Shown: in pieces, positions 19,454-62,496 of the stretch
Layout: each line of letters opens with the position of its first letter
How positions within the stretch are numbered: the stretch's first letter is position 1
Source: Rhyzopertha dominica
Lineage: Eukaryota > Arthropoda > Insecta > Coleoptera > Bostrichidae
Assembly (NCBI GenBank): GCA_025024175.1
Contig: QCXZ01000041.1
Span: forward strand, 17,789,786 to 17,853,785
Direction of reading: 5' to 3'
Length of the DNA stretch: 64,000 bases
Translations under genes and position numbers: made by a program
The notes under the pieces: model-generated
The model's input: the letters and a program-made list of their open reading frames with translations, nothing else
Told to the model about the DNA's origin: nothing
Databases searched by the model: none

Positions 19454-19553
19454 NNNNNNNNNNNNNNNNNNNNNNNNNNNNNNNNNNNNNNNNNNNNNNN
19501 NNNNNNNNNNNNNNNNNNNNNNNNNNNNNNNNNNNNNNNNNNNNNNNNNNNNN
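19454..19553. other. Assembly gap (100 N)
   Basis: Exactly 100 N separates the Gypsy pol fragment from Sat1 in reverse orientation. The round number marks a gap of unknown true length. The missing half of the Gypsy element and probably the left arm of the first satellite-bearing element are hidden here. Confidence 0.98.
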
Positions 19554-20090
19554 CATATCTCGGTTAGCCCCATAGTAACTCTTTCATATTCGCACATAAT
19601 GTTGCTTATACGATAGGCAAACAGCGCCCGTACCAACGATTCATTGCAAACATCCCAAGGGGTAGAAAACCGCCCTCTCGAACTCAACACTAAAAAATCA
19701 TATCTCGTTAGCCCCCATAGTAACTCTTGATATTTGCACACATGTTGCCCATACAGCCAGGCAAACGCGCCGTACAACGATTCATTGCAAACCATCCCAA
19801 GGGGTAGAAACCGCCCTCTCGAACACTAAAAAAATTCATATCTCGGTTAGCCCCATAGTAACTCTTTCATATTCGAACATAATGTTGCTTATACGATAGG
19901 CAACAGCGCCCGTACAACGATTCATTGCAAACCATCCCAAGGGGTAGAAACCGCCCTCTCGAACACTAAAAAAATTCATATCTCGGTTAGCCCCATAGTA
20001 ACTCTTTGATATTTGCACACGATGTTACCCATACCGCCAGCCAAACAGCGCCCGTACAACGATTCATTGCAAACCATCCCAAGGGTAGAA
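19554..20090 (-). repeat. Sat1 142-bp satellite, reverse-oriented block
   Basis: About 3.8 monomers of Sat1 in the orientation opposite to the main array. They contain the reverse complements of the array blocks (for example CATATCTCGGTTAGCCCC and CGATTCATTGCAAACCATCC). Single-base insertions and deletions are frequent close to the gap, which suggests unpolished sequence there. Confidence 0.95.
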
Positions 20091-23000
20091 ACATCGTGTG
20101 CAAATATCAAAGAGTTACTATGGGGGCTAACCGAGATATGATTTTTTTAGTGTTCGAGAGGGCGGTTTCTACCCCTTGGGATGGTTTGCAATGAATCGTT
20201 GTACGGGCGCTGTTTGCTGGCGGTATGGGTAACATCGTGTGCAATATCAAAGAGTTACTATGGGGGCTAACCGAGATATGATTTTTTTAGTGTTCGAGAG
20301 GGCGGTTTCTACCCTTGGGATGGTTTGCAATGAATCGTTGTACGGGCGCTGTTTGCCTGGGTATGGGCAACATCGTGTGCAAATATCAAAGAGTTACTAT
20401 GGGGGCTAACCGAGATATGATTTTTTTAGTGTTCGAGAGGGCGGTTTCTACCCCTTGGGATGGTTTGCAATGAATCGTTGTACGGGCGCTGTTTGCCTGG
20501 CGGTATGGGCAACATCGTGTGCAAATATCAAAGAGTTACTATGGGGGCTAACCGAGATATGATTTTTTTAGTGTTCGAGAGGGCGGTTTCTACCCCTTGG
20601 GATGGTTTGCAATGAATCGTTGTACGGGCGCTGTTTGGCTGCCGTTATGGGTAACATCGTGTGCAAATATCAAAGAGTTACTATGGGGGCTAACCGAGAT
20701 ATGAATTTTTTAGTGTTCGAGAGGGCGGTTTCTACCCCTTGGGATGGTTTGCAATGAATCGTTGTACGGGCGCTGTTTGCCTGGTGGTATGAGCAACATC
20801 GTGTGCAAATATCAAAGAGTTACTATGGGGGCTAACCGAGATATGANTTTTTTAGTGTTCGAGAGGGCGGTTTCTACCCCTTGGGATGGTTTGCAATGAA
20901 TCGTTGTACGGGCGCTGTTTGCCTATCGATATAAGCAACATTATGTGCGAATATGAAAGAGTTACTATGGGGGCTAACCGAGATATGATTTTTTTAGTGT
21001 TCGAGAGGGCGGTTTCTACCCCTTGGGATGGTTTGCAATGAATCGTTGTACGGGCGCTGTTTGGCTGGCGGTATGGGTAACATCGTGTGCAAATATCAAA
21101 GAGTTACTATGGGGGCTAACCGAGATATGAATTTTTTTAGTGTTCGAGAGGGCGGTTTCTACCCCTTGGGATGGTTTGCAATGAATCGTTGTACGGGCGC
21201 TGTTTGCCTATCGATATAAGCAACATTATGTGCGAATATGAAAGAGTTACTATGGGGGCTAACCGAGATATGATTTTTTTAGTGTTCGAGAGGGCGGTTT
21301 CTACCCCTTGGGATGTTTTGCAATGAATCGTTGTACGGGCGCTGTTTGGCTGGCGGTATGGGTAACATCGTGTGCAAATATCAAAGAGTTACTATGGGGG
21401 CTAACCGAGATATGATTTTTTTAGTGTTCGAGAGGGCGGTTTCTACCCCTTGGGATGGTTTGCAATGAATCGTTGTACGGGCGCTGTTTGGCTGGCGGTA
21501 TGGGTAACATCGTGTGCAAATATCAAAGAGTTACTATGGGGGCTAACCGAGATATGAATTTTTTTAGTGTTCGAGAGGGCGGTTTCTACCCCTTGGGATT
21601 GTTTGCAATGAATCGTTGTCCAGGCGCTGTTTGGCTGGCGGTATGGGTAACATCGTGTGCAAATATCAAAGAGTTACTATGGGGGCTAACTGAGATATGA
21701 TTTTTTTAGTGNTCGAGAGGGCGGTTNCTACCCCTTGGGATGGTTTGCAATGAATCGTTGTACGGGCGCTGTTTGCCTGGTGGTGTGGGCAACATCGTGT
21801 GCAAATATCAGAGAGTTACTATGGGGGCTAACCGAGATATGATTTTTTTAGTGTTCGAGAGGGCGGTTTCTACCCCTTGGGATGGTTTGCAATGAATCGT
21901 TGTCCAGGGCGCTGTTTGGCTGGCGGTATGGGTAACATCGTGTGCAAATATCAAAGAGTTACTATGGGGGCTAACCGAGATATGATTTTTTAGTGTTCGA
22001 GAGGGCGGTTTCTACCCCTTGGGATGGTTTGCAATGAATCGTTGTACGGGCGCTGTTTGCCTGGTGGTATGGGCAACATCGTGTGCAAATATCAAAGAGT
22101 TACTATGGGGGCTAACCGAGATATGATTTTTTTTAGTGTTCGAGAGGGCGGTTTCTACCCCTTGGGATGGTTTGCAATGAATCGTTGTACGGGCGCTGTT
22201 TGCCTGGTGGTATGGGCAACATCGTGTGCAAATATCAAAGAGTTACTATGGGGGCTAACCGAGATATGATTTTTTTAGTGTTCGAGAGGGCGGTTTCTAC
22301 CCCTTGGGATGGTTTGCAATGAATCGTTGTACGGGCGCTGTTTGCCTGGTGGTATGGGCAACATCGTGTGCAAATATCAAAGAGTTACTATGGGGGCTAA
22401 CCGAGATATGATTTTTTTAGTGTTCGAGAGGGCGGTTTCTACCCCTTGGGATGGTTTGCAATGAATCGTTGTACGGGCGCTGTTTGGCTGCCGTTATGGG
22501 TAACATCGTGTGCAAATATCAAAGAGTTACTATGGGGGCTAACCGAGATATGAATTTTTTAGTGTTCGAGAGGGCGGTTTCTACCCCTTGGGATGGTTTG
22601 CAATGAATCGTTGTACGGGCGCTGTTTGCCTGGTGGTATGGGCAACATCGTGTGCAAATATCAAGAGTTACTATGGGGGCTAACCGAGATATGATTTTTT
22701 AGTGTTCGAGAGGGCGGTTTCTACCCCTTGGGATGGTTTGCAATGAATCGTTGTACGGGCGCTGTTTGCCTGGTGGTATGGGCAACATCGTGTGCAAATA
22801 TCAAAGAGTTACTATGGGGGCTAACCGAGATATGATTTTTTTAGTGTTCGAGAGGGCGGTTTCTACCCCTTGGGATGGTTTGCAATGAATCGTTGTACGG
22901 GCGCTGTTTGCCTGGTGGTATGGGCAACATCGTGTGCAAATATCAAAGAGTTACTATGGGGGCTAACCGAGATATGATTTTTTTAGTGTTCGAGAGGGCG

Positions 23001-26000
23001 GTTTCTACCCCTTGGGATGGTTTGCAATGAATCGTTGTCCAGGGCGCTGTTTGGCTGGCGGTATGGGTAACATCGCGTGCAAATATCAAAGAGTTACTAT
23101 GGGGGCTAACCGAGATATGATTTTTTTAGTGTTCGAGAGGGCGGTTTCTACCCCATGGGATGGTTTGCAATGAATCGTTGTCCAGGCGCTGTTTGGCTGG
23201 CGGTATGGGTAACATCGTGTGCAAATATCAAAGAGTTACTATGGGGGCTAACCGAGATATGATTTTTTTAGTGTTCGAGAGGGCGGTTTCTACCCCTTGG
23301 GAAGGTTTGCAATGAATCGTTGTACGGGCGCTGTTTGCCTGGTGGTATGGGCAACATCGTGTGCAAATATCAGAGAGTTACTATGGGGGCTAACCGAGAT
23401 ATGATTTTTTAGTGTTCGAGAGGGCGGTTTCTACCCCTTGGGATTGTTTGCAATGAATCGTTGTCCAGGCGCTGTTTGGCTGGCGGTATGGGTAACATCG
23501 TGTGCAAATATCAAAGAGTTACTATGGGGGCTAACCGAGATATGATTTTTTTAGTGTTCGAGAGGGCGGTTTCTACCCCTTGGGATGGTTTGCAATGAAT
23601 CGTTGTACGGGCGCTGTTTGCCTGGTGGTATGGGCAACATCGTGTGCAAATATCAAAGAGTTACTATGGGGGCTAACCGAGATATGATTTTTTTAGTGTT
23701 CGAGAGGGCGGTTTCTACCCCATGGGATGGTTTGCAATGAATCGTTGTCCAGGCGCTGTTTGGCTGGCGGTATGGGTAACATCGTGTGCAAATATCAAAG
23801 AGTTACTATGGGGGCTAACCGAGATATGATTTTTTTAGTGTTCGAGAGGGCGGTTTCTACCCCTTGGGATGGTTTGCAATGAATCGTTGTAAGGGCGCTG
23901 TTTGCCTGGTGGTATGGGCAACATCGTGTGCAAATATCAGAGAGTTACTATGGGGGCTAACCGAGATATGATTTTTTTAGTGTTCGAGAGGGCGGTTTCT
24001 ACCCCTTGGGATGGTTTGCAATGAATCGTTGTCCAGGCGCTGTTTGGCTGGCGGTATGGGTAACATCGTGTGCAAATATCAAAGAGTTACTATGGGGGCT
24101 AACCGAGATATGATTTTTTTAGTGTTCGAGAGGGCGGTTTCTACCCCTTGGGATGGTTTGCAATGAATCGTTGTACGGGCGCTGTTTGCCTGGTGGTATG
24201 GGCAACATCGTGTGCAAATATCAAAGAGTTACTATGGGGGCTAACCGAGATATGATTTTTTTAGTGTTCGAGAGGGCGGTTTCTACCCCTTGGGATGGTT
24301 TGCAATGAATCGTTGTACGGGCGCTGTTTGGCTGCCGTTATGGGTAACATCGTGTGCAAATATCAAAGAGTTACTATGGGGGCTAACCGAGATATGAATT
24401 TTTTAGTGTTCGAGAGGGCGGTTTCTACCCCTTCGGATGGTTTGCAATGAATCGTTGTACGGGCGCTGTTTGCCTGGTGGTATGGGCAACCTCGTGTGCA
24501 AATATCAAAGAGTTACTATGGGGGCTAACCGAGATATGATTTTTTTAGTGTTCGAGAGGGCGGTTTCTACCCCTTGGGATGGTTTGCAATGAATCGTTGT
24601 ACGGGCGCTGTTTGCCTGGTGGTATGGGCAACATCGTGTGCAAATATCAAAGAGTTACTATGGGGGCTAACCGAGATATGATTTTTTTAGTGTTCGAGAG
24701 GGCGGTTTCTACCCCTTGGGATGGTTTGCAATGAATCGTTGTACGGGCGCTGTTTGCCTGGTGGTATGGGCAACATCGTGTGCAAATATCAAAGAGTTAC
24801 TATGGGGGCTAACCGAGATATGATTTTTTTAGTGTTCGAGAGGGCGGTTTCTACCCCTTGGGATGGTTTGCAATGAATCGTTGTCCAGGCGCTGTTTGGC
24901 TGGCGGTATGGGTAACATCGCGTGCAAATATCAAAGAGTTACTATGGGGGCTAACCGAGATATGATTTTTTTAGTGTTCGAGAGGGCGGTTTCTACCCCA
25001 TGGGATGGTTTGCAATGAATCGTTGTCCAGGCGCTGTTTGGCTGGCGGTATGGGTAACATCGTGTGCAAATATCAAAGAGTTACTATGGGGGCTAACCGA
25101 GATATGATTTTTTTAGTGTTCGAGAGGGCGGTTTCTACCCCTTGGGATGGTTTGCAATGAATCGTTGTACGGGCGCTGTTTGCCTGGTGGTGTGGGCAAC
25201 ATCGTGTGCAAATATCAGAGAGTTACTATGGGGGCTAACCGAGATATGATTTTTTTAGTGTTCGAGAGGGCGGTTTCTACCCCTTGGGATGGTTTGCAAT
25301 GAATCGTTGTCCAGGCGCTGTTTGGCTGGCGGTATGGGTAACATCGTGTGCAAATATCAAAGAGTTACNATGGGGGCTAACCGAGATATGATTTTTTTAG
25401 TGTTCGAGAGGGCGGTTTCTACCCCTTGGGATGGTTTGCAATGAATCGTTGTACGGGCGCTGTTTGCCTGGTGGTATGGGCAACATCGTGTGCAAATATC
25501 AAAGAGTTACTATGGGGGCTAACCGAGATATGATTTTTTTAGTGTTCGAGAGGGCGGTTTCTACCCCTTGGGATGGTTTGCAATGAATCGTTGTACGGGC
25601 GCTGTTTGCCTGGTGGTATGGGCAACATCGTGTGCAAATATCAAAGAGTTACTATGGGGGCTAACCGAGATATGATTTTTTTAGTGTTCGAGAGGGCGGT
25701 TTCTACCCCTTGGGATGGTTTGCAATGAATCGTTGTACGGGCGCTGTTTGCCTGGTGGTATGGGCAACATCGTGTGCAAATATCAAAGAGTTACTATGGG
25801 GGCTAACCGAGATATGATTTTTTTAGTGTTCGAGAGGGCGGTTTCTACCCCTTGGGATGGTTTGCAATGAATCGTTGTACGGGCGCTGTTTGACTGGCGG
25901 TATGGGTAACATCGTGTGCAAATATCAAAGAGTTACTATGGGGGCTAACCGAGATATGATTTTTTTAGTGTTCGAGAGGGCGGTTTCTACCCCTTGGGAT

Positions 26001-27882
26001 GGTTTGCAATGAATCGTTGTACGGGCGCTGTTTGCCTATCGATATAAGCAACATTATGTGCGAATATGAAAGAGTTACTATGGGGGCTAACCGAGATATG
26101 ATTTTTTTAGTGTTCGAGAGGGCGGTTTCTACCCCTTGGGATGGTTTGCAATGAATCGTTGTACGTGCGCTGTTTGACTGGCGGTATGGGTAACATCGTG
26201 TGCAAATATCAAAGAGTTACTATGGGGGCTAACCGAGATATGATTTTTTTAGTGTTCGAGAGGGCGGTTTCTACCCCTTGGGATGGTTTGCAATGAATCG
26301 TTGTACGGGCGCTGTTTGCCTATCGATATAAGCAACATTATGTGCGAATATGAAAGAGTTACTATGGGGGCTAACCGAGATATGATTTTTTTAGTGTTCG
26401 AGAGGGCGGTTTCTACCCCTTGGGATGGTTTGCAATGAATCGTTGTACGGGCGCTGTTTGGCTGGCGGTATGGGTAACATCGTGTGCAAATATCAAAGAG
26501 TTACTATGGGGGCTAACCGAGATATGAATTTTTTTAGTGTTCGAGAGGGCGGTTTCTACCCCTTGGGATGGTTTGCAATGAATCGTTGTACGGGCGCTGT
26601 TTGCCTATCGATATAAGCAACATTATGTGCGAATATGAAAGAGTTACTATGGGGGCTAACCGAGATATGATTTTTTTAGTGTTCGAGAGGGCGGTTTCTA
26701 CCCCTTGGGATGTTTTGCAATGAATCGTTGTACGGGCGCTGTTTGGCTGGCGGTATGGGTAACATCGTGTGCAAATATCAAAGAGTTACTATGGGGGCTA
26801 ACCGAGATATGATTTTTTTAGTGTTCGAGAGGGCGGTTTCTACCCCTTGGGATGGTTTGCAATGAATCGTTGTACGGGCGCTGTTTGGCTGGCGGTATGG
26901 GTAACATCGTGTGCAAATATCAAAGAGTTACTATGGGGGCTAACCGAGATATGAATTTTTTTAGTGTTCGAGAGGGCGGTTTCTACCCCTTGGGATGGTT
27001 TGCAATGAATCGTTGTATGGGCGCTGTTTGCCTATCGATATAAGCAACATTATGTGCGAATATGAAAGAGTTACTATGGGGGCTAACCGAGATATGATTT
27101 TTTTAGTGTTCGAGAGGGCGGTTTCTACCCCTTGGGATGGTTTGCAATGAATCGTTGTACGGGCGCTGTTTGGCTGGCGGTATGGGTAACATCGTGTGCA
27201 AATATCAAAGAGTTACTATGGGGGCTAACCGAGATATGAATTTTTTTAGTGTTCGAGAGGGCGGTTTCTACCCCTTGGGATGGTTTGCAATGAATCGTTG
27301 TACGGGCGCTGTTTGCCTATCGATATAAGCAACATTATGTGCGAATATGAAAGAGTTACTATGGGGGCTAACCGAGATATGATTTTTTTAGTGTTCGAGA
27401 GGGCGGTTTCTACCCCTTGGGATGTTTTGCAATGAATCGTTGTACGGGCGCTGTTTGGCTGGCGGTATGGGTAACATCGTGTGCAAATATCAAAGAGTTA
27501 CTATGGGGGCTAACCGAGATATGATTTTTTTAGTGTTCGAGAGGGCGGTTTCTACCCCTTGGGATGGTTTGCAATGAATCGTTGTACGGGCGCTGTTTGG
27601 CTGGCGGTATGGGTAACATCGTGTGCAAATATCAAAGAGTTACTATGGGGGCTAACCGAGATATGAATTTTTTTAGTGTTCGAGAGGGCGGTTTCTACCC
27701 CTTGGGATGGTTTGCAATGAATCGTTGTACGGGCGCTGTTTGCCTATCGATATAAGCAACATTATGTGCGAATATGAAAGAGTTACTATGGGGGCTAACC
27801 GAGATATGAATTTTTTAGTGCTCGAGAGGGCGGGTTTTACCCCTTGGGGTGGTTCGCAATGTATCGTTGTACGGGCGCTGTT
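20091..27882 (+). repeat. Sat1 142-bp satellite array, about 55 monomers
   Basis: Head-to-tail monomers of 142 bp (141-143). Landmarks in each are GTTCGAGAGGGCGGTTTC, GATGGTTTGCAATGAATCG, GGGCGCTGTTTG and GAGTTACTATGGGGGCTAAC. A variable window after GCTGTTTG defines monomer types: A (CCTGGTGGTATGGGC), B (GCTGGCGGTATGGGT), C (CCTATCGATATAAGC with ATTATGTGCGAATATGAAAG) and D (GCTGCCGTTATGGGT). Types follow each other in higher-order patterns. Since 142 is not a multiple of 3, the repeated 63-codon frames inside are by-products, not genes. The last monomer (27800-27882) is diverged (GTGCTCGAGAGGGCGGG, GTGGTTCGCAATGTATCG) and runs into the element's terminal region. Confidence 0.98.
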
Positions 27883-28039
27883 ATAAAAATTTGTTTTAGA
27901 ATGTGCTATTTCCTGGTGACTAGGTAGAAGCTAATTACCTATATGAATGAACGGCCATCTACAAAGTTTGTTAGCTCTATAGTATTCGGGTGTTTCCGTA
28001 AAAATTGGCTGCTGGAACTGGCCGCTGTTTTCACACGGG
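27883..28039 (+). mobile_element. Right terminal region of satellite-bearing element, copy 1
   Basis: Non-satellite end that follows Sat1 and stops at CACACGGG, with TA at 28040-28041. It is identical, base for base, to 53850-54006; including the adjoining satellite, the two copies agree over 265 bp (27777-28041 and 53744-54008) and then diverge completely in the flank. Its last 56 bp are the right terminal inverted repeat described for copy 2. The matching left end of this copy is not visible and is probably in or beyond the gap at 19454. Confidence 0.85.
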
Positions 28040-28041
28040 TA

Positions 28042-31000
28042 GTTTTTGTTGTGTCGGGCTTTGTGTAAGTCGATACGGTCTTTAATCCCTGTTATTATTT
28101 GTCAGATTAAATATCATAGCTAACTGAATTTGCCGTGGAGAACTAACGATAACCGGGTATCCCTTCCATTGTGGAATTGTACTCACAAATATGTAGGTAT
28201 AGACTTTGAATAGTAAGTACCTAATTTCCTAGCTGTGCAAAATAATAAATAGGTACCTACTTATAAACATTACGCTACTCATGCTCTAAAGAACAGATAA
28301 TATGAAAATTTTGCTAATGGGCGACAGAACTCAAATTTTTTCGGAATCGGACCCTGCTTCGTCAGTTGCACACGTAATGTAATACAGGGTCAGGCGAAGA
28401 AATATAGGTTCTGCACTTGAAGCAGCTCAACACGCGTTGAGTATTTAAAGCACGTGAAATATTAATAAGCAAACGTAAATCCTGGTTATATAAAATGAAT
28501 GTAATATATTACAGGTACTTATAGAAACATTAATACGTTTGGTTATACTTTATAAAAGGTATGAGAGCTAGACCATTCCCTAAACGACAGTTTAATAAGC
28601 TGCAAACCAATACATTATTGATGTAAACATGGCACTGTTTTGTTTTCCGTGTTGATCATTCAAAAGTTATACAAAATCTGGATTTGTTTTACACAGAATT
28701 GACCCACTCAAGTTAAATAGAAAAAACAGGCAAAAACACATTTGTAAAATGGTCAGTTTGATATCCACGAAATTAAGTAAACAATTGAATGTAGTCTGAA
28801 AATCGATAAAAATTCTTATAGGATAGAATCATGGACTACATAACATTTTGTATAGCAAGTTCGACTATGTTTTCACTAATTACGAATTTTTGCGTGTAAA
28901 TGAGTGACATGTTTTGAGTGTTGCATATTGTAACCTCACAAACAAAAGTTACTCGTATGTTAAATAACAATGTGATTGGCAAATTAGTCCAAACTATAGC
29001 AGTTTCAGAAACGAAAACTGAACGCACGCTACCAAATTTTGTTGTGATTAAAAACCTATATAAATAGATAATAATATATGACCAGATATTTGAATTTTCT
29101 GCAAGGATTATAAGACTGAGTGTCTATAAAGCGCTGAGAACATATGTTTCATAACACGATATTTTAAGGTTTATTTTAGTGTTCAGTAATTACCTATATT
29201 GTTAATAACTTATTAATCGATCAGCAGTTGCATTTCAAGGTTATAGTTAAAATAAATTTACTTGAACGATTACGGATTAAAGGTTCATCTATAGTAGCGT
29301 CACTGTGGTCATCTGTTGAACGATTTGGAGTAGCACAGTGCGTTTTAGCCTGTTTTTTGTATAAAATTGCTAGCTGTATGTACCTATACCGTAGGGTACA
29401 AAAGAATAAGCAAAGAAGTAATTTACTTTTGAGGCATTGCATGTTTTACTAAGGTGATGGCTTAAGTAAGATGTGTACTTTTCCCTAAGCACTTCTTATA
29501 TTTCTTGTACAGTCAGGAGCTTGTAATTTTGAGGTTCAAACTTTTGATCTCTACACAATATATTGTAAAGCTGCTGTTTGGCATATTTTCGTATAAATTT
29601 TTGACTCAGAGTAAATGATTGGATATGTTCGTTTTTTTTTAACACGGATCATATTTATCAAGCGGCAATTAGACCCAAAAGATATGATTCCTGTCCAATT
29701 TGATAAACATCAAAGTCGTTCGTTTGTTAGAGTATTTCGAAAACGTTTGGTATTTGATAGGTAGTGTTTTAATTTTCTCATCCATACCTTTTGTGCCAGC
29801 CTTTTTAAAAAAAGCCCATATCACACCGTTGTGAAATAATAATAATAATAGCGTAGTACATTATAGGTGTGCAACACTGTTTTGAATGGCACGTAAGGAA
29901 ATTATATTTCATATCATTCATATAGGTATCGCAACAAACTCTATTATCACAGGAACTCTTTCGGGGATCGGGGTGTCACTCTGAACTTAAAAGATACCTA
30001 TATATCCAGCATGCTGTTGGCCTGTTTTCAAACTTATTTTTATTTTTAAATACTGTTTGCTTCTGTTGATACCTACTCAATGAGTTGAATTGTCCTATAA
30101 TTAAAATCTAGTTTATATCATTTTTATTTCTTAGTTCCGCTTGTTATTTGTGAATTGCAAATATACTTATCATTGATGCTTTTCAAAGATATATGTCCTT
30201 GCATTCACAATTGACTTTGTGAATATAAAAAAACCTGAGTGGCTTCTATTAAGAGGTGTAAAAAGTAAATCCAAGAGCGTCAATTGGCGTCATTAAGTCT
30301 TCGTCTTAATGCTATATTAAAGCAATTCATTAACAGATTGTCGGTCTTCTTTTCCCGAGAGGCGTTTAGGACCATTTGGACCAAAGTGGATAATAAATTT
30401 AGCGATGATCACAAAGGCCGCATGTGTTTGGTGTAGCGCCTTTTAAGTGAGTGGTATGTTCGTAAGTCCATAAAACTGTCCAGCAATAATACGTTCTGTT
30501 CTAGTAGAGTTTCAGGAAATGTAATACTTAACAGATAGTTTCCTTGAGGTTCGCTCTATTTATTTTAGAATATATATTTTTTCTATTCAGTATACGTTAT
30601 TCATACAAATTACGTATAAATGACGTGTTTTAGAAGTATATAATATGTATCTTTCTGAAATAATAGTCATTTGATTATTTTCCATTCGCTTTCATCAGCG
30701 AAAATAGTTTATATTAATAATGTAGACGTCCAGTGGTACTGGTACTTATTTATCCTCTAATTTGAGAGACGTTCAATGTTAACAAAAAATGTTAAAAGCT
30801 GAAGAATACAATTTTCTATTATTGACCGCTCATATTTTCCTGTTTGGCCAACAGAAATATGTAATCACAGAACATTTGACAGAAACAAAAATATATATTT
30901 CGTAAAGGCTTTCTGTGTAAGTATCCTACAACGCTCACATACTTTATACGTTCTTGAGATTGCATCATATCGTTTCTGGCTCTATGCATATTTTGGAAAA

Positions 31001-41053: not shown

Positions 41054-41528
41054 TCGACAACAACCACGGAAGCCTTCAAACCAAAATAATAGTTTTTTTT
41101 TGTTATGGTCCTTCTATCTCTCTTTTCATTTGCTTTTTTCTTTGACAGCTTTGGTGAACGTTTGTACGATATTCCTTTTCAGTTTCTCAGGATTGTTCTG
41201 TTAGCTTTGATAGTAGTGGCACTCTTAACCCGTGTATTATTATAGGTAGGATTTCTAATGTGTCCTTAATTTTTTTAATATTCCAGTTCTGTTTATGTTT
41301 TTCAATATTTGCCAGTATAGCTCGTGTCACTCTATATGCAGTTTTTGTTTACCCTTACGGACTCCTACCATCACCACCACTGCTTGATTTTTACGCATTC
41401 CATACTTATTGCATTTCATTTACCACCTTTTGTGTTTTGAGAAATTCTTGATGTGCTCGCGATTGTAACTCTAATTTGCTAAAACTCTGACGGCAGTTTG
41501 TTAAATCGCACGCAATGACATAAAAATG
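41054..41528. other. Spacer before the satellite-bearing element
   Basis: AT-rich DNA with one 63-codon frame (41260-41451) lacking any domain signal. It ends in TA at 41529-41530, the presumed target duplication of the large element. Confidence 0.45.
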
Positions 41529-41530
41529 TA

Positions 41531-41586
41531 CCGGTGTGAAAGCAGCAGCCAAAGATAGCAGCCAATTTTTCCGAAGTTACACGAAT
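41531..41586 (+). repeat. Left terminal inverted repeat (56 bp)
   Basis: Ungapped match at 42 of 56 positions to the reverse complement of 53951-54006. Best-conserved parts are GTGTGAAA near the tip and AGCAGCCAATTTTT further in. Beyond it lies about 110 bp without satellite similarity, much as on the right side. Confidence 0.75.
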
Positions 41587-41697
41587 GGACATAGGCGTGC
41601 GTTACATACAACGTATGTATTAATATTAAACGCGCCTGCAACGCTAATAATTAGAATCATCACATTTATTTCAACGTCGTATTTGTTACGAAGATTA

Positions 41698-44600
41698 TAA
41701 GTGACATCCCCTTCCGATGGGACCCAGGGAGCAAAACAACCCCGAAAATATTGTAAAAATTCATATCGCGGAAATCGCGCATACGAAATTATTCAAACTT
41801 ACACATTTATTTTAGAACACCATATTCTACATAGTCTATGAGTGGCATCCCCTTCCAAATGGATCCAGGGGGTAAAACAACCCCGAAAACACTGAAAAAA
41901 ATTATATCACGGAAACCGCGCATAGGAAATCATTTAAACCTATAAATTTATTTTAGAACAACATATTCTACATAGTGTATGAGTGGCATCCCCTTCCGAT
42001 GGGATCCAGGGGGTTAAACAACCCCGAAAACACAGAAAAAATACATATCACGGAAACCGCGCATAGGAACTCATTTAAACTTAGATATTTATTTTAGAAC
42101 ATCATATTCTACATAGTGTATAAGTGACATCCCCTTCCGATGGGATCCAGGGGGTTAAACAACCCCGAAAACACTGAAAAAATACATATCACGGAAACCG
42201 CGCATAGGAAATCATTTAAACTTAGAAATTTATTTTAGAACATCATATTCTACATAGTGTATAAGTGACATCCCCTTCCGATGGGATCCAGGGGGTTAAA
42301 CAACCCCGAAAACACTGAAAAAATACATATCACGGAAACCGCGCATAGGAAATCATTTAAACTTAGATATTTATTTTAGAACACCATATTCTACATAGTG
42401 TATGAGTGGCATCCCCTTCTGATGGGATCCAGGGGGTTAAACAACCCCGAAAACACAGAAAAAATACATATCACGGAAACCGCGCATAGGAAATCATTTA
42501 AACTTAGATAATTATTTTAGAACACCATATTCTACATAGTGTATAAGTGACATCCCCTTCCGATGGGATCCAGGGGCTTAAACAACCCCGAAAACACTGA
42601 AAAAATACATATCACGGAAACCGCGCATAGGAAATCATTTAAACTTAGATATTTATTTTAGAATATCATATTCTACATAGTGTATAAGTGACATCCCCTT
42701 CCGATGGGATCCAGGGGGTTAAACAACCCCGAAAACACTGAAAAAATACATATCACGGAAACCGCGCATAGGAAATCATTTAAACTTAGATATTTATTTT
42801 AGAACATCATATTCTACATAGTGTATGAGTGGCATCCCCTTCCCATGGGATCCATGGGGTTAAATAACCCCGAAAACACCAAAAAAATACATATCACGGA
42901 AACCGCGCATAGGAAATCATTTAAACTTAGATAATTATTTTAGAACACCATATTCTACATAGTGTATAAGTGACATCCCCTTCCGATGGGATCCAGGGGG
43001 TTAAACAACCCCGAAAACACTGAAAAAATTCACATCACGGAAGCAGCGCATAGGAAATCATTTAAACTTATAAATTTATTTTAGAACACCATATTCTACA
43101 TAGTGTATGAGTGGCATCCCCTTCCGATGGGATCCAGGGAGTTAAACAACCCCGAAAACACTGAAAAAATACATATCACGGAAACCGCGCATAGGAAATC
43201 ATTTAAACTTAGATATTTATTTTAGAACATCATATTCTACATAGTGTATAAGTGACATCCCCTTCCGATGGGATCCAGGGGGTTAAACAACCCCGAAAAC
43301 ACTGAAAAAATACATATCACGGAAACCGCGCATAGGAAATCATTTAAACTTAGATATTTATTTTAGAACACCATATTCTACATAGTGTATGAGTGGCATC
43401 CCCTTCCGACGGGATCCAGGGGGTTAAACAACCCCGAAAACACAGAACAAATACATATCACGGAAACCGCGCATAGGAAATCATTTAAACTTAGATATTT
43501 ATTTTAGAACATCATATTCTACATAGTGTATAAGTGACATCCCCTTCCGATGGGATCCAGGGGGTTAAACAACCCCGAAAACACTGAAAAAATACATATC
43601 ACGGAAACCGCGCATAGGAAATCATTTAAACTTAGATATTTATTTTAGAACATCATATTCTACATAGTGTAAGAGTGGCATCCCCTTCCGATGGGATCCA
43701 GGGGGTTAAACAACCCCGAAAACACAGAAAAAATACATATCACGGAAACCGCGCATAGGAAATCATTTAAACTTAGATAATTATTTTAGAACACCATATT
43801 CTACATAGTGTATAAGTGATATCCCCTTCCGATGGGATCCAGGGGGTTAAACAACCCCGAAAACACTGAAAAAATTCACATCACGGAAGCAGCGCATAGG
43901 AAATCATTTAAACTTATAAATTTATTTTAGAACACCATATTCTACATAGTGTATGAGTGGCATCCCCTTCCGATGGGATCCAGGGGGTTAAACAACCCCG
44001 AAAACACAGAAAAAATACATATCACGGAAACCGCGCATAGGAAATCATTTAAACTTAGATATTTATTTTAGAACACCATATTCTACATAGTGTATAAGTG
44101 ACATCCCCTTCCGATGGGATCCAGGGGCTTAAACAACCCCGAAAACACTGAAAAAATACATATCACGGAAACCGCGCATAGGAAATCATTTAAACTTAGA
44201 TATTTATTTTAGAACACCATATTCTACATAGTGTATGAGTGGCATCCCCTTCCGATGGGATCCAGGGGGTTAAACAACCCCGAAAACACAGAACAAATAC
44301 ATATCACGGAAACCGCGCATAGGAAATCATTTAAACTTAGATATTTATTTTAGAACATCATATTCTACATAGTGTATGAGTGGCATCCCCTTCCGATGGG
44401 ATCCAGGGGGTTAAACAACCCCGAAAACACAGAAAAAATACATATCACGGAAACCGCGCATAGGAAATCATTTAAACTTAGATATTTATTTTAGAACCTC
44501 ATATTCTACATAGTGTATAAGAGACATCCCCTTCCGATGGGATCCAGGGGGTTAAACAACCCCGAAAACACTGAAAAAATACATATCACGGAAACCGCGC

Positions 44601-47600
44601 ATAGGAAATCATTTAAACTTAGATATTTATTTTAGAACACAATATTCTACATAGTGTATGAGTGGCATCCCCTTCCGATGGGATCCAGGGGGTTAAACAA
44701 CCCCGAAAACACAGAAAAAATACATATCACGGAAACCGCGCATAGGAAATCATTTAAACTTAGATAATTATTTTAGAATACCATATTCTACATAGTGTAT
44801 AAGTGACATCCCCTTCCGATGGGATCTAGGGGTTAAACAACCCCGAAAACAATGAAAAAATTCACATCACGGAAGCAGCGCATAGGAAATCATTTAAACT
44901 TATAAATTTATTTTAGAACACCATATTCTACATAGTGTATGAGTGGCATCCCCTTCCGATGGGATCCAGGGGGTTAAACAACCCCGAAAACACTGAAAAA
45001 ATACATATCACGGAAACCGCGCATAGGAAATCATTTAAACTTAGATATTTATTTTAGAACACCATATTCTACATAGTGTATGAGTGGTATCCCCTTCCGA
45101 TGGGATCCAGGGGGTTAAACAACCCCGAAAACACAGAAAAAATACATATCACGGAAACCGCGCATAGGAAATCATTTAAACTTAGATATTTATTTTAGAA
45201 CACCATATTCTACATAGTGTATGAGTGGCATCCCCTTCCGATGGGATCCAGGGGGTTAAACAACCCCGAAAACACAGAACAAATACATATCACGGAAACC
45301 GCGCATAGGAAATCATTTAAACTTAGATATTTATTTTAGAACATCATATTCTACATAGTGTATGAGTGGCATCCCCTTCCGATGGGATCCAGGGGGTTAA
45401 ACAACCCCGAAAACACAGAAAAAATACATATCACGGAAACCGCGCATAGGAAATCATTTAAACTTAGATATTTATTTTAGAACCTCATATTCTACATAGT
45501 GTATAAGAGACATCCCCTTCCGATGGGATCCAGGGGGTTAAACAACCCCGAAAACACTGAAAAAATACATATCACGGAAACCGCGCATAGGAAATCATTT
45601 AAACTTAGATATTTATTTTAGAACACAATATTCTACATAGTGTATGAGTGGCATCCCCTTCCGATGGGATCCAGGGGGTTAAACAACCCCGAAAACACAG
45701 AAAAAATACATATCACGGAAACCGCGCATAGGAAATCATTTAAACTTAGATAATTATTTTAGAATACCATATTCTACATAGTGTATAAGTGACATCCCCT
45801 TCCGATGGGATCTAGGGGTTAAACAACCCCGAAAACAATGAAAAAATTCACATCACGGAAGCAGCGCATAGGAAATCATTTAAGCTTATAAATTTATTTT
45901 AGAACACCATATTCTACATAGTGTATGAGTGGCATCCCCTTCCGATGGGATCCAGGGGGTTAAACAACCCCGAAAACACTGAAAAATACATATCACGGAA
46001 ACCGCGCATAGGAAATCATTTAAACTTAGATATTTATTTTAGAACATCATATTCTACATAGTGTATAAGTGACATCCCCTTCCGATGGGATCCAGGGGGT
46101 TAAACAACCCCGAAAACAATGAAAAAATACATATCACGGAAACCGCGCATAGGAAATCATTTAAACTTAGATATTTATTTTAGAACATCATATTCTACAT
46201 AGTGTATGAGTGGCATCCCCTTCCGATGGGATCCAGGGGGTTAAACAACCCCGAAAACACAGAAAAAATACATATCACGGAAACCGCGCATAGGAAATCA
46301 TTTAAACTTAGATAATTATTTTAGAACACCATATTCTACATAGTGTATAAGTGACATCCCCTTCCGATGGGATCCAGGGGGTTAAACAACCCCGAAAACA
46401 CTGAAAAAATTCACATCACGGAAGCAGCGCATAGGAAATCATTTAAACTTATAAATTTATTTTAGAACACCATATTCTACATAGTGTATGAGTGGCATCC
46501 CCTTCCGATGGGATCCAGGGGGTTAAACAACCCCGAAAACACTGAAAAAATACATATCACGGAAACCGCGCATAGGAAATCATTTAAACTTAGATATTTA
46601 TTTTAGAACATCATATTCTACATAGTGTATAAGTGACATCCCCTTCCGATGGGATCCAGGGGGTTAAACAACCCCGAAAACACTGAAAAAATTCACATCA
46701 CGGAAGCAGCGCATAGGAAATCATTTAAACTTATAAATTTATTTTAGAACACCATATTCTACATAGTGTATGAGTGGCATCCCCTTCCGATGGGATCCAG
46801 GGGGTTAAACAACCCCGAAAACACAGAAAAAATACATATCACGGAAACCGCGCATAGGAAATCATTTAAACTTAGATATTTATTTTAGAACACCATATTC
46901 TACATAGTGTATAAGTGACATCCCCTTCCGATGGGATCCAGGGGCTTAAACAACCCCGAAAACACTGAAAAAATACATATCACGGAAACCGCGCATAGGA
47001 AATCATTTAAACTTAGATATTTATTTTAGAACACCATATTCTACATAGTGTATGAGTGGCATCCCCTTCCGATGGGATCCAGGGGGTTAAACAACCCCGA
47101 AAACACAGAACAAATACATATCACGGAAACCGCGCATAGGAAATCATTTAAACTTAGATATTTATTTTAGAACATCATATTCTACATAGTGTATGAGTGG
47201 CATCCCCTTCCGATGGGATCCAGGGGGTTAAACAACCCCGAAAACACAGAAAAAATACATATCACGGAAACCGCGCATTAGGAAATCAATTTAAACTTAG
47301 AATATTTATTTTAGAACTCATATTCTACATAGTGTATAAGAGACATCCCCTTCCGATGGGATCCAGGGGGTTAAACAAACCCGAAAACACTGAAAAAATA
47401 CATATCACGGAAACCNCGCATAGGAAATCATTTAAACTTAGATATTTATTTTAGAACATCATATTCTACATAGTGTATAAGTGACATCCCCTTCCGATGG
47501 GATCCAGGGGGTTAAACAACCCCGAAAACACTGAAAAAATACATATCACGGAAACCGCGCATAGGAAATCATTTAAACTTAGATATTTATTTTAGAACAC

Positions 47601-50516
47601 CATATTCTACATAGTGTATAAGTGACATCCCCTTCCGATGGGATCCAGGGGGTTAAACAACCCCGAAAACAATGAAAAAATTCACATCACGGAAGCAGCG
47701 CATAGGAAATCATTTAAACTTATAAATTTATTTTAGAACACCATATTCTACATAGTGTATGAGTGGCATCCCCTTCCGATGGGATCCAGGGGGTTAAACA
47801 ACCCCGAAAACACTGAAAAAAATACATATCACGGAAACCGCGCATAGGAAATCATTTAAACTTAGATATTTATTTTAGAACACCATATTCTACATAGTGT
47901 ATGAGTGACATCCCCTTCCGATGGGATCCAGGGGGTTTAAACAACCCCGAAAACACAGAAAAAATACATATCACGGAAACCGCGCATAGGAAATCATTTA
48001 AACTTAGATATTTATTTTAGAACACCATATTCTACATAGTGTATGAGTGGCATCCCCTTCCGATGGGATCCAGGGGGTTAAACAACCCCGAAAACACAGA
48101 ACAAATACATATCACGGAAACCGCGCATAGGAAATCATTTAAACTTAGATATTTATTTTAGAACATCATATTCTACATAGTGTATGAGTGGCATCCCCTT
48201 CCGATGGGATCCAGGGGGTTAAACAACCCCGAAAACACAGAAAAAATAACATATCACGGAAACCGCGCATAGGAAATCATTTAAACTTAGATATTTATTT
48301 TAGAACCTCATATTCTACATAGTGTATAAGAGACATCCCCTTCCGATGGGATCCAGGGGGTTAAACAACCCCGAAAACACTGAAAAAATACATATCACGG
48401 AAACCGCGCATAGGAAATCATTTAAACTTAGATATTTTATTTTAGAACACAATATTCTACATAGTGTATGAGTGGCATCCCCTTCCGATGGGATCCAGGG
48501 GGTTAAACAACCCCGAAAACACAGAAAAAATACATATCACGGAAAACCGCGCATAGGAAATCATTTAAACTTAGATAATTATTTTAGAATACCATATTCT
48601 ACATAGTGTATAAGTGACATCCCCTTCCGATGGGATCTAGGGGTTAAACAACCCCGAAAACAATGAAAAAATTCACATCACGGAAGCAGCGCATAGGAAA
48701 TCATTTAAGCTTATAAATTTATTTTAGAACACCATATTCTACATAGTGTATGAGTGGCATCCCCTTCCGATGGGATCCANNGGNTTAAACAACCCCGAAA
48801 ACACTGAAAAAATACATATCACGGAAACCGCGCATAAGGAAATCATTTAAACTTAGATATTTATTTTAGAACATCATATTCTACATAGTGTATAAGTGNC
48901 ATCCCCTTCCCGATGGGATCCAGGGGGTTAAACAACCCCGAAAACACTGAAAAAATACATATCACGGAAACCGCGCATAGGAAATCATTTAAACTTAGAT
49001 ATTTATTTTAGAACACCATATTCTACATAGTGTATGAGTGGCATCCCTTCCGATGGGATCCAGGGGGTTAAACAACCCCGAAAACACAGAAAAAATACAT
49101 ATCACGGAACCGGCGCAATAGGAAATCATTTAAACTTAGATAATTATTTTAGAACACCATATTCTACATAGTGTATAGTGACATCCCCTTCCGATGGGAT
49201 CCAGGGGGTTAAACAACCCCGAAAACACTGAAAAAATACATCACGGAAACCGCGCATAGGAAATCATTTAAACTTAGATATTTATTTTAGAACACCATAT
49301 TCTACATAGTGTATGAGTGGCATCCCCTTCCGATGGGATCCAGGGGGTTAAACAACCCCGAAAACACTGAAAAAATACATATCACGGAAACCGCGCATAG
49401 GAAATCATTTAAACTTAGATATTTATTTTAGAACACCATATTCTACATAGTGTATAGTGACATCCCCTTCCGATGGGATCCAGGGGGTTAAACAACCCCG
49501 AAAACACTGAAAAAATACATATCACGGAAACCGCGCATAGGAAATCATTTAAACTTAGATATTTATTTTAGAACACCATATTCTACATAGTGTATAAGTG
49601 ATCCCCTTCCGATGGGATCCAGGGGGTTAAACAACCCCGAAAACACTGAAAAAATACATATCACGGAAACCGCGCATAGGAAATCATTTAAACTTAGATA
49701 TTTATTTTAGAACACCATATTCTACATAGTGTATAAGTGACATCCCCTTCCGATGGGATCCAGGGGGTTAAACAACCCCGAAAACACAGAAAAAATACAT
49801 ATCACGGAAACCGCGCATAGGAAATCATTTAAACTTAGATATTTATTTTAGAACATCATATTCTACATAGTGTATAGTGACATCCCCTTCCGATGGGATC
49901 CAGGGGGTTAAACAACCCCGAAAACACTGAAAAAATACATCACGGAAACCGCGCATAGGAAATCATTTAAACTTAGATATTTATTTTAGAACACCATATT
50001 CTACATAGTGTATGAGTGCATCCCCTTCCGATGGGATCCAGGGGTTAAACAACCCCGAAAACACTGAAAAAATACATATCACGGAAACGCGCATAGGAAA
50101 TCATTTAAACTTAGATATTTATTTTAGAACACCATATTCTACATAGTGTATAAGTGACATCCCCTTCCGATGGGATCCAGGGGGTTAAACAACCCCGAAA
50201 ACACTGAAAAAATACATATCACGGAAACCGCGCATAGGAAATCATTTAAACTTAGATAATTTATTTTAGAACACCATATTCTACATAGTGTATGAGTGGC
50301 ATCCCCTTCCGATGGGATCAGGGGGTTAAACAACCCCGAAAACACAGAAAAAATACATATCACGGAAACCGCGCATAGGAAATCATTAAACTTAGATAAT
50401 TTATTTTAGAAACCATATCTACATAGTGTAAAGTGCATCCCTTCCGATGGGATCCAGGGGGTTAAACAACCCCGAAAACACTAAAAAAATTCACATCACG
50501 GAAACCGCGCATAGGA
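41698..50516 (+). repeat. Sat2 141-bp satellite array, about 62 monomers
   Basis: Head-to-tail 141-bp monomers with landmarks CATCCCCTTCCGATGGGATC, CAGGGGGTTAAACAACCCC, CATATCACGGAAACCGCGC, GGAAATCATTTAAACTTAG and CATATTCTACATAGTGTAT. Variant monomers with TTCACATCACGGAAGCAGCG, or with AACCTCATATTC plus GTATAAGAGACATC, recur at fixed distances, giving a 7-monomer higher-order unit of about 986 bp. The first monomer (41698-41838) is diverged (GGGACCCAGGGAGCAAAAC, CATATCGCGGAAATCGCGC). From about 47270 and especially after 49000, one-base insertions and deletions become frequent up to the gap. Open frames here follow no reading constraint. Confidence 0.98.
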
Positions 50517-50616
50517 NNNNNNNNNNNNNNNNNNNNNNNNNNNNNNNNNNNNNNNNNNNNNNNNNNNNNNNNNNNNNNNNNNNNNNNNNNNNNNNNNNNN
50601 NNNNNNNNNNNNNNNN
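50517..50616. other. Assembly gap (100 N) between Sat2 and Sat1
   Basis: Exactly 100 N, so the true distance is unknown. Any central, non-satellite part of the element, such as a transposase gene, would lie here. Confidence 0.98.
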
Positions 50617-53600
50617 TGTATGGGCAACATCGTGTGCAATATCAAAGAGTTACTATGGGGCTAACCGAGATATGAATTTTTTAGTGTTCGAGAGGGCGGT
50701 TTCTACCCTTGGGATGGTTTGCAATGAATCGTTGTACGGGCGCTGTTTGCTGGCGGTATGGGCAACATCGTGTGCAAATATCAAAGAGTTACTATGGGGC
50801 TAACCGAGATATGAATTTTTAGTGTTCGAGAGGGCGGTTTCTACCCCTTGGGATGGTTTGCAATGAATCGTTGTACGGGCGCTGTTTGGCTGGCGGTATG
50901 GGCAACATCGTGTGCAAATATCAAAGAGTTACTATGGGGGCTAACCGAGATATGAATTTTTTAGTGTTCGAGAGGGCGGTTTCTACCCCTTGGGATGGTT
51001 TGCAATGAATCGTTGTACGGGCGCTGTTTGCTGGCGGTTGGGCAACATCGTGTGCAAATATCAAAGAGTTACTATGGGGGCTAACCGAGATATGAATTTT
51101 TTAGTGTTCGAGAGGGCGGTTTCTACCCCTTGGGATGGTTTGCAATGAATCGTTGTACGGGCGCTGTTTGCTGGCGGTATGGGCAACATCGTGTGCAAAT
51201 ATCAAAGAGTTACTATGGGGGCTAACCGAGATATGATTTTTTAGTGTTCGAGAGGGCGGTTTCTACCCCTTGGGATGGTTTGCAATGAATCGTTGTACGG
51301 GCGCTGTTTGCTGGCGGTATGGGTAACATCGTGTGCAAATATCAAAGAGTTACTATGGGGCTAACCGAGATAATTTTTTAGTGTTCGAGAGGGCGGTTTC
51401 TACCCCTTGGGATGGTTTGCAATGAATCGTTGTACGGGCGCTGTTTGCCTATGGTATGCAACATCGTGTGCAAATATAAAGAGTTACTATGGGGGCTAAC
51501 CGAGATATGATTTTTTAGTGTTCGAGAGGGCGGTTTCTACCCCTTGGGATGGTTTGCAATGAATCGTTGTACGGGCGCTGTTTGGCTGGGTATGGGTAAC
51601 ATCGTGTGCAAATATCAAAGAGTTACTATGGGGGCTAACCGAGATATGATTTTTTAGTGTTCGAGAGGGCGGTTTCTACCCCTTGGGATGGTTTGCAATG
51701 AATCGTTGTACGGGCGCTGTTTGCCTGGTATGGGCAACATCGTGTGCAAATATCAAAGAGTTACTATGGGGGCTAACCGAGATATGATTTTTTAGTGTTC
51801 GAGAGGGCGGTTTCTACCCCTTGGGATGGTTTGCAATGAATCGTTGTACGGGCGCTGTTTGGCTGGCGGTATGGGTAACATCGTGTGCAAATATCAAAGA
51901 GTTACTATGGGGCTAACCGAGATATGAATTTTTTTGTGTTCGAGAGGGCGGTTTCTACCCCTTGGAATGGTTTGCAATGAATCGTTGTACGGGCGCTGTT
52001 TGACTGGCGGTATGGGTAACATCGTGTGCAAATATCAAAGAGTTACTATGGGGGCTAACCGAGATATGATTTTTTAGTGTTCGAGAGGGCGGTTTCTACC
52101 CCTTGGGATGGTTTGCAATGAATCGTTGTACGGGCGCTGTTTGGCTGGCGGTATGGGGTAACATCGTGTGCAAATATCAAAGAGTTACTATGGGGGCTAA
52201 CGAGATATGAATTTTTTTAGTGTTCGAGAGGGCGGTTTCAACCCCTTGGGATGGTTTGCAATGAATCGTTGTACGGGCGCTGTTTGGCTGGCGGTATGGG
52301 TAACATCGTGTGCAAATATCAAAGAGTTACTATGGGGGCTAACCGAGATATGAATTTTTTAGTGTTCGAGAGGGCGGGTTTCTACCCCTTGGGATGGTTT
52401 GCAATGAATCGTTGTACGGGCGCTGGTTTGCCTATCGATATAAGCAACATTATGTGCGAATATGAAGAGTTACTATTGGGGGCTAACCGAGATATGATTT
52501 TTTTAGTGTTCGAGAGGGCGGTTCTACCCCTTGGGATGGTTTGCAATGAATCGTTGTACGGGCGCTGTTTGGCTGGCGGGTATGGGTAACATCGTGTGCA
52601 AATATCAAAGAGTTACTATGGGGGCTAACCGAGATATGATTTTTTTAGTGTTCGAGAGGGCGGTTTCTACCCCTTGGATGGTTTGCAATGAATCGTTGTA
52701 CGGGCGCTGTTTGGCTGGCGGTATGGGTAACATCGTGTGCAAATATCAAAGAGTTACTATGGGGGCTAACCGAGATATGAATTTTTTTAGTGTTCGAGAG
52801 GGCGGTTTCTACCCCTTGGGATGGTTTGCAATGAATCGTTGTAGGGCCGCTGTTTGCCTATCGATATAAGCAACAAGATGTGCGAATATGAAAGAGTTAC
52901 TATGGGGGCTAACCGAGATATGATTTTTTTAGTGTTCGAGAGGGCGGTTTCTACCCCTTGGGATGGTTTGCAATGAATCGTTGTACGGGGCGCTGTTTGG
53001 CTGGCGGTATGGGTAACATCGTGTGCAAATATCAAAGAGTTACTATGGGGGCTAACCGAGATATGAATTTTTTTAGTGTTCGAGAGGGCGGTTTCTACCC
53101 CTTGGGATGGTTTGCAATGAATCGTTGTACGGGCGCTGTTTGCCTATCGATATAAGCAACATTATGTGCGAATATGAAAGAGTTACTATGGGGGCTAACC
53201 GAGATATGATTTTTTAGTGTTCGAGAGGGCGGTTTCTACCCCTTGGGATGGTTTGCAATGAATCGTTGTACGGGCGCTGTTTGGCTGGCGGTATGGGTAA
53301 CATCGTGTGCAAATATCAAAGAGTTACTATGGGGGCTAACCGAGATATGATTTTTTTAGTGTTCGAGAGGGCGGTTTCTACCCCTTGGAATAGTTTGCAA
53401 TGAATCGTTGTACGGGCGCTGTTTGGCTGGCGGTATGGGTAACATCGTGTGCAAATATCAAAGAGTTACTATGGGGGCTAACCGAGATATGAATTTTTTT
53501 AGTGTTCGAGAGGGCGGTTTCTACCCTTGGGATGGTTTGCAATGAATCGTTGTACGGGCGCTGTTTGCCTATCGATATAAGCAACATTATGTGCGAATAT

Positions 53601-53849
53601 GAAAGAGTTACTATGGGGGCTAACCGAGATATGATTTTTTTAGTGTTCGAGAGGGCGGTTTCTACCCCTTGGGATGGTTTGCAATGAATCGTTGTACGGG
53701 CGCTGTTTGGCTGGCGGTATGGGTAACATCGTGTGCAAATATCAAAGAGTTACTATGGGGGCTAACCGAGATATGAATTTTTTAGTGCTCGAGAGGGCGG
53801 GTTTTACCCCTTGGGGTGGTTCGCAATGTATCGTTGTACGGGCGCTGTT
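50617..53849 (+). repeat. Sat1 142-bp satellite array, right arm of copy 2, about 23 monomers
   Basis: Same monomer family as 20091-27882, in the same orientation. Types B and C dominate near the right end, as in copy 1, but the last ordinary monomer is type B here and type C in copy 1. The closing monomer (53765-53849) carries the same diverged bases as in copy 1. Monomers near the gap (50617-51500) have many one-base deletions (for example TGCTGGCGGT for TGGCTGGCGGT), probably sequence error. Confidence 0.97.
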
Positions 53850-54006
53850 ATAAAAATTTGTTTTAGAATGTGCTATTTCCTGGTGACTAGGTAGAAGCTA
53901 ATTACCTATATGAATGAACGGCCATCTACAAAGTTTGTTAGCTCTATAGTATTCGGGTGTTTCCGTAAAAATTGGCTGCTGGAACTGGCCGCTGTTTTCA
54001 CACGGG
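53850..54006 (+). repeat. Right terminal region and TIR of copy 2
   Basis: Non-satellite end of the element; the last 56 bp (53951-54006) are the terminal inverted repeat matching 41531-41586. It is identical to 27883-28039 of copy 1, while the outside flanks (CAAAAACTGCATTTG here, GTTTTTGTTGTGTCG in copy 1) are unrelated as direct sequence. Confidence 0.82.
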
Positions 54007-54008
54007 TA

Positions 54009-54812
54009 CAAAAACTGCATTTGAGAAGGGCGCACAGAGCTATAATAACTAGATTTTAGATACTACGATATTCTAAAGACTCGGGTGCACAATAATAATA
54101 ACCTTCATCGTTACTGCAGATGTTCCGAAGATTACAGCCTAGTCCATATATAGTGTATTTGCAAATGAAAGAAAAGGTACCTAGAAGATTATTAATTGCA
54201 AAGTGAAAGTCCTTACCTCTTTAATATTTCTTTACCAAAGCGTATCTATGCAACAATAAATGAATTTCAAATGTGGAGACTAAGGACTAATCCAATTATA
54301 AAGAAGTATTGGACAGATAACCCAATAAGTAAATTACTACATTATTAAGTAATGCAACAAACACGAGCGCTGCACGCCTTTTTTGCTATAGAGACATGAT
54401 GTTTCTAAAACATCGACATTGTTTTATTCTCCACGGCATATTTTGTTTCAGAAAGACCCAGTCACCAAAAAAAAGTTAAAACGAGAGAAGATCGAAAATA
54501 CCTCAAAACATTGGTGAAGCTGCCAAAAGCAATTCTAATAGGTAGGTAATAGCCGTATTGTCACCATTGGCAGGCTTGCATTCACCTGTCTTCCTAAAAA
54601 TATATCTCGCCTGCTTGTTTAAAAATCCAGGCTTGAAGTTTAAATCCAAATCCAGTAAGCTCATCTCCTCATTAGTAAACAAAGGCCTGGCAATGTGAAT
54701 AGCCAATAAAATTTAAAATAGAAAACAATACATACTCAAAGATAGGTGTATAAGTATACATAATAAAGTATTATGAGCAAATTTGGTGCTTTTTTACTAC
54801 ATGATTATATTA
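54009..54812. other. Intergenic DNA, nothing recognised
   Basis: AT-rich spacer between the satellite-bearing element and a hAT-like element. The 67-codon minus-strand frame at 54503-54706 has no domain that I know. Confidence 0.4.
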
Positions 54813-57432: not shown

Positions 57433-57451
57433 ACTAGACGGCCTCGGCGAG

Positions 57452-62470: not shown

Positions 62471-62496
62471 CCCTCAGTAGTCAGCAAACCATCACC

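Follow-up and report, generated by a model that had tools for sequence, protein, structure and literature searches.

The window analyzed here is a 64,000-nucleotide stretch of the Rhyzopertha dominica genome (C41:17789786-17853785; the genome searched comprises 479 Mb in 138 contigs). Two of its satellite arrays, with adjoining terminal repeats, make up a block at positions 41531-54006 (Table 1). Satellite A has a period of 141 bp and 62.6 copies, and satellite B a period of 142 bp and 22.9 copies. An earlier note on this DNA had described the block as one 12.5-kb mobile element with the arrays as its arms. Its comparison of the two ends was reproduced: 42 of 56 positions in 41531-41586 are identical, in an ungapped alignment, to the reverse complement of 53951-54006, and the gapped local score of end against end is 46, compared with at most 26 for shuffled sequences (n = 500). 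Both arrays were likewise recovered, but the block is not continuous, being divided between them by a run of exactly 100 N that the note did not mention. A second run of 100 N lies further left in the window, and the 31-kb contig between the two runs begins on the left with the greater part of a B half and finishes on the right with an A half. Elsewhere in the window, two adjacent frames of the Mab-21 family (Pfam Mab-21 and Mab-21_C) occupy 57347-58549 and 62398-63594 on the + strand, with 78% DNA likeness over 1.1 kb, and fragments of a Gypsy-like retrotransposon, namely, integrase, RNase H, and the end of the reverse transcriptase, reach the gap at 19454 on the - strand (17292-19583).

Table 1. 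Features of the window associated with the A and B terminal repeats (window positions)
Feature	Position	Strand	Remarks
100-N run, probably a scaffold gap, at the far end of the 31-kb contig	19454..19553	.	
Oppositely directed satellite B, opening the second B arm immediately beyond the centre of the B palindrome	19554..20092	-	
Satellite B array, arm of a B insertion	20090..27882	+	
Family B terminal inverted repeat	27883..28040	-	27883-28041 is 100% identical to 53850-54008
9-mer AGTTTTTGT, partner of 54008-54016	28041..28049	.	
9-mer TAAAAATGT adjoining the A end	41521..41529	.	Exact reverse complement of the 9-mer at the A end C41:17772550
Family A terminal inverted repeat, starting with ACCGGTGTGAAAGCAGC	41530..41695	+	24 of 40 scored genome matches, its own included, are 100% identical
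Arm of an A element, made of satellite A (141-bp unit)	41696..50516	+	Like layout in other A elements
100-N run, probably a scaffold gap, separating the A and B halves	50517..50616	.	
Arm of a B element, made of satellite B (142-bp unit)	50618..53849	+	
Family B terminal inverted repeat, ending with CTGTTTTCACACGGGT	53850..54007	-	
9-mer ACAAAAACT adjoining the B end	54008..54016	.	Exact reverse complement of 28041-28049

Genome-wide searches separated the two ends into distinct families, A and B. Among the 40 scored of 70 candidate matches to the A end, there are 15 inward-facing A-A pairs no more than 30 kb apart, with spans of 1.3-16.8 kb, and 10 matches are unpaired; among the 40 scored of 81 candidates for the B end, 12 B-B pairs were found, with 16 matches unpaired. 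Among the 12 B pairs, C136:7506790 and C53:8225514 are doubtful: the former may be two elements, since a further B left end follows straight after a 100-N gap (L036, 4260-4396), and the latter has no satellite B in the part of its middle that was read. When both kinds of end were searched for with one pattern, 107 forward and 109 reverse matches were obtained, with 0 and 0 for a control pattern. Among the first 100 of these 216 matches, 80 ends form 40 inward pairs within 30 kb, 39 of which carry a like motif at both ends, and 20 ends are unpaired; of the neighbouring ends, three face outward and two point in one direction. The 40 pairs listed comprise 12 B-B, 6 A-A, 21 with a third end type, ACCGGTGTGAAAACAGC (on C1, C3, and C41; spans of 0.5-21.9 kb; the pair at C1:15.6 Mb was read in part), and a single mixed pair, which is that of the window. 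The left end is thus mostly partnered by another left end rather than by the right one, and paired copies are A-A or B-B, contrary to the view that both arms belong to one element; a predominance of such pairs was an outcome that the earlier note itself had named as speaking against it. Ends of many copies are near-identical (24 of the 40 scored A-end matches, the window's own counted, are 100% identical), which suggests recent activity.

The TA found at both ends of the block, previously taken for a target-site duplication, was ruled out as such, because the left-hand A and the right-hand T belong to the elements themselves as their outermost bases, present in all 12 A and all 3 B elements examined. 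Duplications were scored with these bases counted inside the element and the 9-mers beyond compared. The 12 A elements scored in this way (three of the 15 pairs were omitted, one being degenerate, one flanked by N, and one represented by its left half only) match at 9/9 positions in eight cases, at 8/9 and 7/9 in one case each, and at 1/9 and 3/9 in the remaining two, so that a duplication of at least 7/9 is present in 10 of 12; the B elements match at 9/9 in 3 of 3. Ends that are not partners agree at no more than 6/9 positions in 132 comparisons, and two 9-mers taken at random from the window have a chance of 0.00027 of matching at 9/9. By eye, the degenerate A pair C1:10887289 is flanked on both sides by ATGTTTCAG, and the element C1:15609829-15631729 has an 8/9 duplication. 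The A-B pair of the window matches at 5/9 positions only and is bridged solely by the 100-N gap; the block itself does not combine matching ends with a common target duplication, a further argument against a single element.

Partners for the flanks of the block are found elsewhere. Exact reverse complementarity links the 9-mer at 28041-28049 to that at 54008-54016, so the ends at 28039 and 54006 look like the two ends of one B insertion. The 9-mer at 41521-41529 stands in the same relation to the flank at C41:17772550, which makes the A ends at 41531 and C41:17772550 look like a single A insertion. The two A elements with mismatched duplications, C41_17772 and C136_37886, both lack a 100-N gap. 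Their flanks have partners as well: the right flanks of the two are reverse complements of each other, and the left flank of C136_37886 matches the right flank of C136_37956. The A elements L018 and L019 (C136:37.89 and 37.96 Mb), 70 kb apart, have centres that are 99.8% identical, and a 9-mer that adjoins one of them on the left recurs to the right of its counterpart, so that they look like one element assembled twice.

Both families have the long inverted ends with tandem repeats that define fold-back elements, and here the earlier note was borne out: each half of the block is an arm of a mobile element of this type, and the elements are large, with near-palindromes of 3.7 to >29 kb, loci of other families included. 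The fold-back label is therefore right for the class of elements and wrong for the block. From the outside inward, the common layout consists of the 9-bp duplication, a terminal repeat starting with ACC(G/C)GTGTGAAA(G/A)CAGC, a satellite arm with 141-142-bp units, a centre in some copies, and the mirror-image arm; in A copies, the order is accordingly terminal inverted repeat (TIR), satellite A, the centre where present, inverted satellite A, and inverted TIR. The arrays abut directly in L010, L012, and L015 and abut at a gap in L014 and C3_56829, and the degenerate C1:10887289 pair has satellite A in a single direction only. A 100-N gap inside 9 of the 15 A pairs leaves the arm lengths uncertain. 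Eight A centres that were compared measure 1.4, 1.9, 3.2, 3.5, 3.5, 3.9, 8.8, and 9.6 kb, any gaps counted, and six of them contain inverted self-copies (C41_46084 and C1_29870 do not); this range of centres would arise from a ladder of internal deletions. The three B copies read whole (L033, which is gapped, L034, and L035) consist of two opposed satellite B arms with no other centre.

Satellites A and B have a core of ~70 bp in common, oriented alike with respect to the end (score of 40, with shuffles at most 25, n = 500; the opposite orientation scores 17). Satellite A might derive from the inner part of TIR A, but this is only a suggestion from the alignment, whose score of 56 included 25 bp of the array itself; satellite B showed no match to TIR B (score of 17). 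No autonomous B copy was found, with 7 of the 12 B pairs lying outside the sequence read and the C136:7506790 pair (L036) read by half. The middle 4.7 kb of C75:5799827-5814865 is satellite B throughout except for a gap, and the middle 7.5 kb of the 27-kb pair C53:8225514-8252966 contains no satellite B and an unrelated DDE_Tnp_4 frame.

Mis-joining at near-identical palindromes is the simplest reading of the duplication partners. With a probability of about 0.9, we conclude that the block at 41531-54006 is an assembly join of a type-A half and a type-B half, with 28039 and 54006 bounding one B insertion and 41531 belonging with C41:17772550, and that A and B are two families within one group of large fold-back DNA transposons; the segment 19554-50516 is most likely misoriented. 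The original proposal of a single giant element with unequal ends and a TA duplication could appeal to the 42 of 56 matching end positions and to the TA at both ends, and it was rejected on the strength of the end pairing, in which this is the sole mixed pair among the 40 listed, the missing 9-bp duplication, and the central 100-N run, the TA being terminal bases; it now seems exceedingly improbable. A real rearrangement, in which fold-back copies recombined, inverting the 31-kb segment and swapping the duplications so that a hybrid A-B block exists in the genome, is also unlikely, albeit the least so of the alternatives. Fold-back elements in flies have been reported to cause such inversions, the duplications here are swapped rather than lost, satellites A and B have their core in common, and, with two unduplicated A elements free of 100-N gaps (C41_17772 and C136_37886), recombination between copies retains some plausibility. 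Against it, the segment is bounded by 100-N runs on both sides, L018 and L019 resemble a doubly assembled element, and the A end C41:17772550 is assembled onto a flank whose duplication partner is on another scaffold, C136, so that a single inversion would be insufficient as an explanation.

The palindromes themselves might have arisen artefactually during sequencing or assembly, from elements that really possess a single satellite arm and no more than one gene, and the 100-N gap inside 9 of 15 A pairs could be taken to point this way. This is very unlikely, given that the two flanks of an element differ and still carry one common 9-bp duplication, which is not expected from a hairpin-read artefact. 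Six copies (L010, L012, L015, L018, L034, and L035) and the 29.3-kb locus of family C described below are, moreover, free of 100-N gaps, and matching sequence occupies the palindrome centre in C136_19314 and C136_45944.

The A copy C136_45944 (C136:45945257-45962083) contains, in its right arm, an uninterrupted frame of 1,500 codons that encodes 1,487 amino acids from the first ATG (C136:45953820-45958280) and is 100% identical over residues 1-1487 to P0096, a protein present on four contigs of another source. The gene sits in the centre of the element, reads outward, and has a mirror-image counterpart in the opposite arm. Two intact genes were not seen together in any copy: the left mirror gene of C136_45944 is cut by a gap, and both genes of C136_19314 are frame-broken. 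From the remaining copies, the genes have been lost in part or entirely. The order of domains in the protein is DDE-type transposase, PHD, YqaJ nuclease, Ulp1 protease, and PHD. YqaJ, Ulp1/C48, and PHD (two stretches) pass the Pfam cut-offs in a 667-aa part, and the DDE centre gave no significant Pfam match of its own. The D, D, CxxH, and E residues are invariant in alignments of 26-27 relatives, and the whole-transposase relatives with species names come from the beetles Phaedon, Ceutorhynchus, and Pyrocoelia. A DDE triad with CxxH before the E marks Mutator-like elements (MULEs), the pattern being found in hAT elements as well. The MULE transposase profile PF10551 matches 1 of 26 relatives (E = 0.0013), with no match listed for the protein itself.

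The predicted fold of one relative, P0115 (mean pLDDT of 70.5, pTM of 0.51), obtained its highest VIA-align Z score with ISCth4 (12.0 over 239 residues, 5.6 Å), a member of the IS256 family, the prokaryotic kin of Mutator; the P element (11.0), retroviral integrases (up to 10.6), and Hermes (10.4) came next, and Foldseek ranked the P element first and ISCth4 seventh. No THAP domain was detected in the 1,500-codon frame at E values up to 5 or for the 26 relatives (among 25 of 27 families listed). A profile search with A2, in which only the candidates sharing the most words were scored, retrieved P0115 and one distant YqaJ protein alone and no named NOF protein. The duplication of ~9 bp, the DDE triad with CxxH before E, and, more ambiguously, the fold suggest that A and B are Mutator-like fold-back elements. 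Two distant relatives of the DDE region, P0121 and P0122, show 27-30% identity, and P0121, from a JGI source, has an Ulp1 domain; the transposase fusion perhaps reaches beyond beetles.

The same genome encodes transposase relatives at 33-42% identity. At three such loci (L041, L042, and L043), satellite arrays adjoin the 3′ end of the gene, and the inverted repeat takes in the gene (L041 and L043) or the stretch directly before the matched gene (L042); both satellite arms are seen in L043 only, a single arm having been fetched for L041 and L042. Together with its neighbours, L043 (family C) forms a gap-free near-palindrome of 29,301 bp with 8 single N, the ends lying beyond the stretch read. 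Its satellite arms, no shorter than 11.85 and 10.2 kb, are 98.98% alike over 10 kb, and the satellite contains the A/B core (scores of 44 and 42, with shuffle maxima of 26 and 25, n = 200). The 142-bp satellite of L042 is a weak case (29 against B, with a shuffle maximum of 24, and 28 against C, with a maximum of 29; 200 shuffles), and the 156-bp satellite of L041 showed no match to the A/B/C core. L041 lies within a 21.9-kb pair of third-type ends (C1:15609829-15631729) with a 1,390-codon open frame and a 100-N gap inside; none of the three loci proved to be B. A unit length divisible by three gives the 156-bp array of L041 (7007-9544) open frames of 440 and 404 codons, probably by chance. 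Further transposase lineages, at 33-39% identity, were noted at C86:18380156, C41:14238118, C3:28299706, and C64:38068755.

Among known elements, FB and FB-NOF of Drosophila melanogaster resemble A and B in their fold-back structure, tandemly repetitive arms, 9-bp duplication, and gene between the arms, but have much shorter repeat units and arms. Fold-back elements with tandem-repeat ends and their link to Mutator are already known (PMC4079207, PMC3169594). Tetris of Drosophila virilis is likewise a fold-back element, with ~220-bp tandem repeats inside its ends, 8-10-bp duplications, and arms that feed a satellite; unlike the families described here, in which one copy has an intact gene and the satellite core is common to three families, it yielded no autonomous copy and no conserved ORFs (PMC4079207). 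Tm1 of root-knot nematodes shares the fold-back-like tandem-repeat ends, mostly 9-bp duplications, and, in some copies, a Mutator-type transposase, but the corresponding text describes repeats of 13-15 bp, elements of 1.1 and 2.6 kb, and a Phantom-type protein of 496 aa with a FLYWCH finger (PMC3169594), compared with 141-156-bp units, 3.7 to >29 kb, and 1,487 aa with PHD, YqaJ, and Ulp1 here. Galileo, of the P superfamily, also has long inverted ends, in which tandem repeats contain additional transposase-binding sites, and differs in its P-type transposase with THAP (PMC4079207, PMC3169594); no THAP match is listed here. In one survey, no Pack-MULE exceeded 7 kb, according to a review of giant transposons. 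The size, gene content, mirrored genes, and satellite core common to three families are unusual, and an open-access literature search found no published description of an A or B family among the matches listed.

Transposition presumably proceeds by cut and paste, driven by the encoded DDE protein, and copies without a gene would be mobilized in trans. The satellite arms may serve to multiply putative transposase-binding sites, the satellite core repeating such a site; multiplication of binding sites by arms has been proposed for Galileo and Tetris (PMC4079207, PMC3169594), and the identification of an intact gene makes it a testable idea. More broadly, and as a tentative model that may well prove wrong, these elements could represent a giant self-palindromic Mutator-like lineage, in which working satellite arms with ~140-156-bp units would multiply a putative transposase-binding core, diverge along with the transposase of each lineage, and enclose a head-to-head pair of transposase-PHD-YqaJ-Ulp1 genes, while the nuclease would process palindrome hairpins.

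For genome assembly, the implication is that such palindromes can break chromosome assemblies, and matching 9-bp duplications offer a simple test to find and correct mis-joins. Satellites are tied here to a fold-back transposon in which, unlike Tetris, an intact gene was identified. If the model of a self-palindromic lineage is true, giant palindromic elements would steadily seed satellites and inversions.
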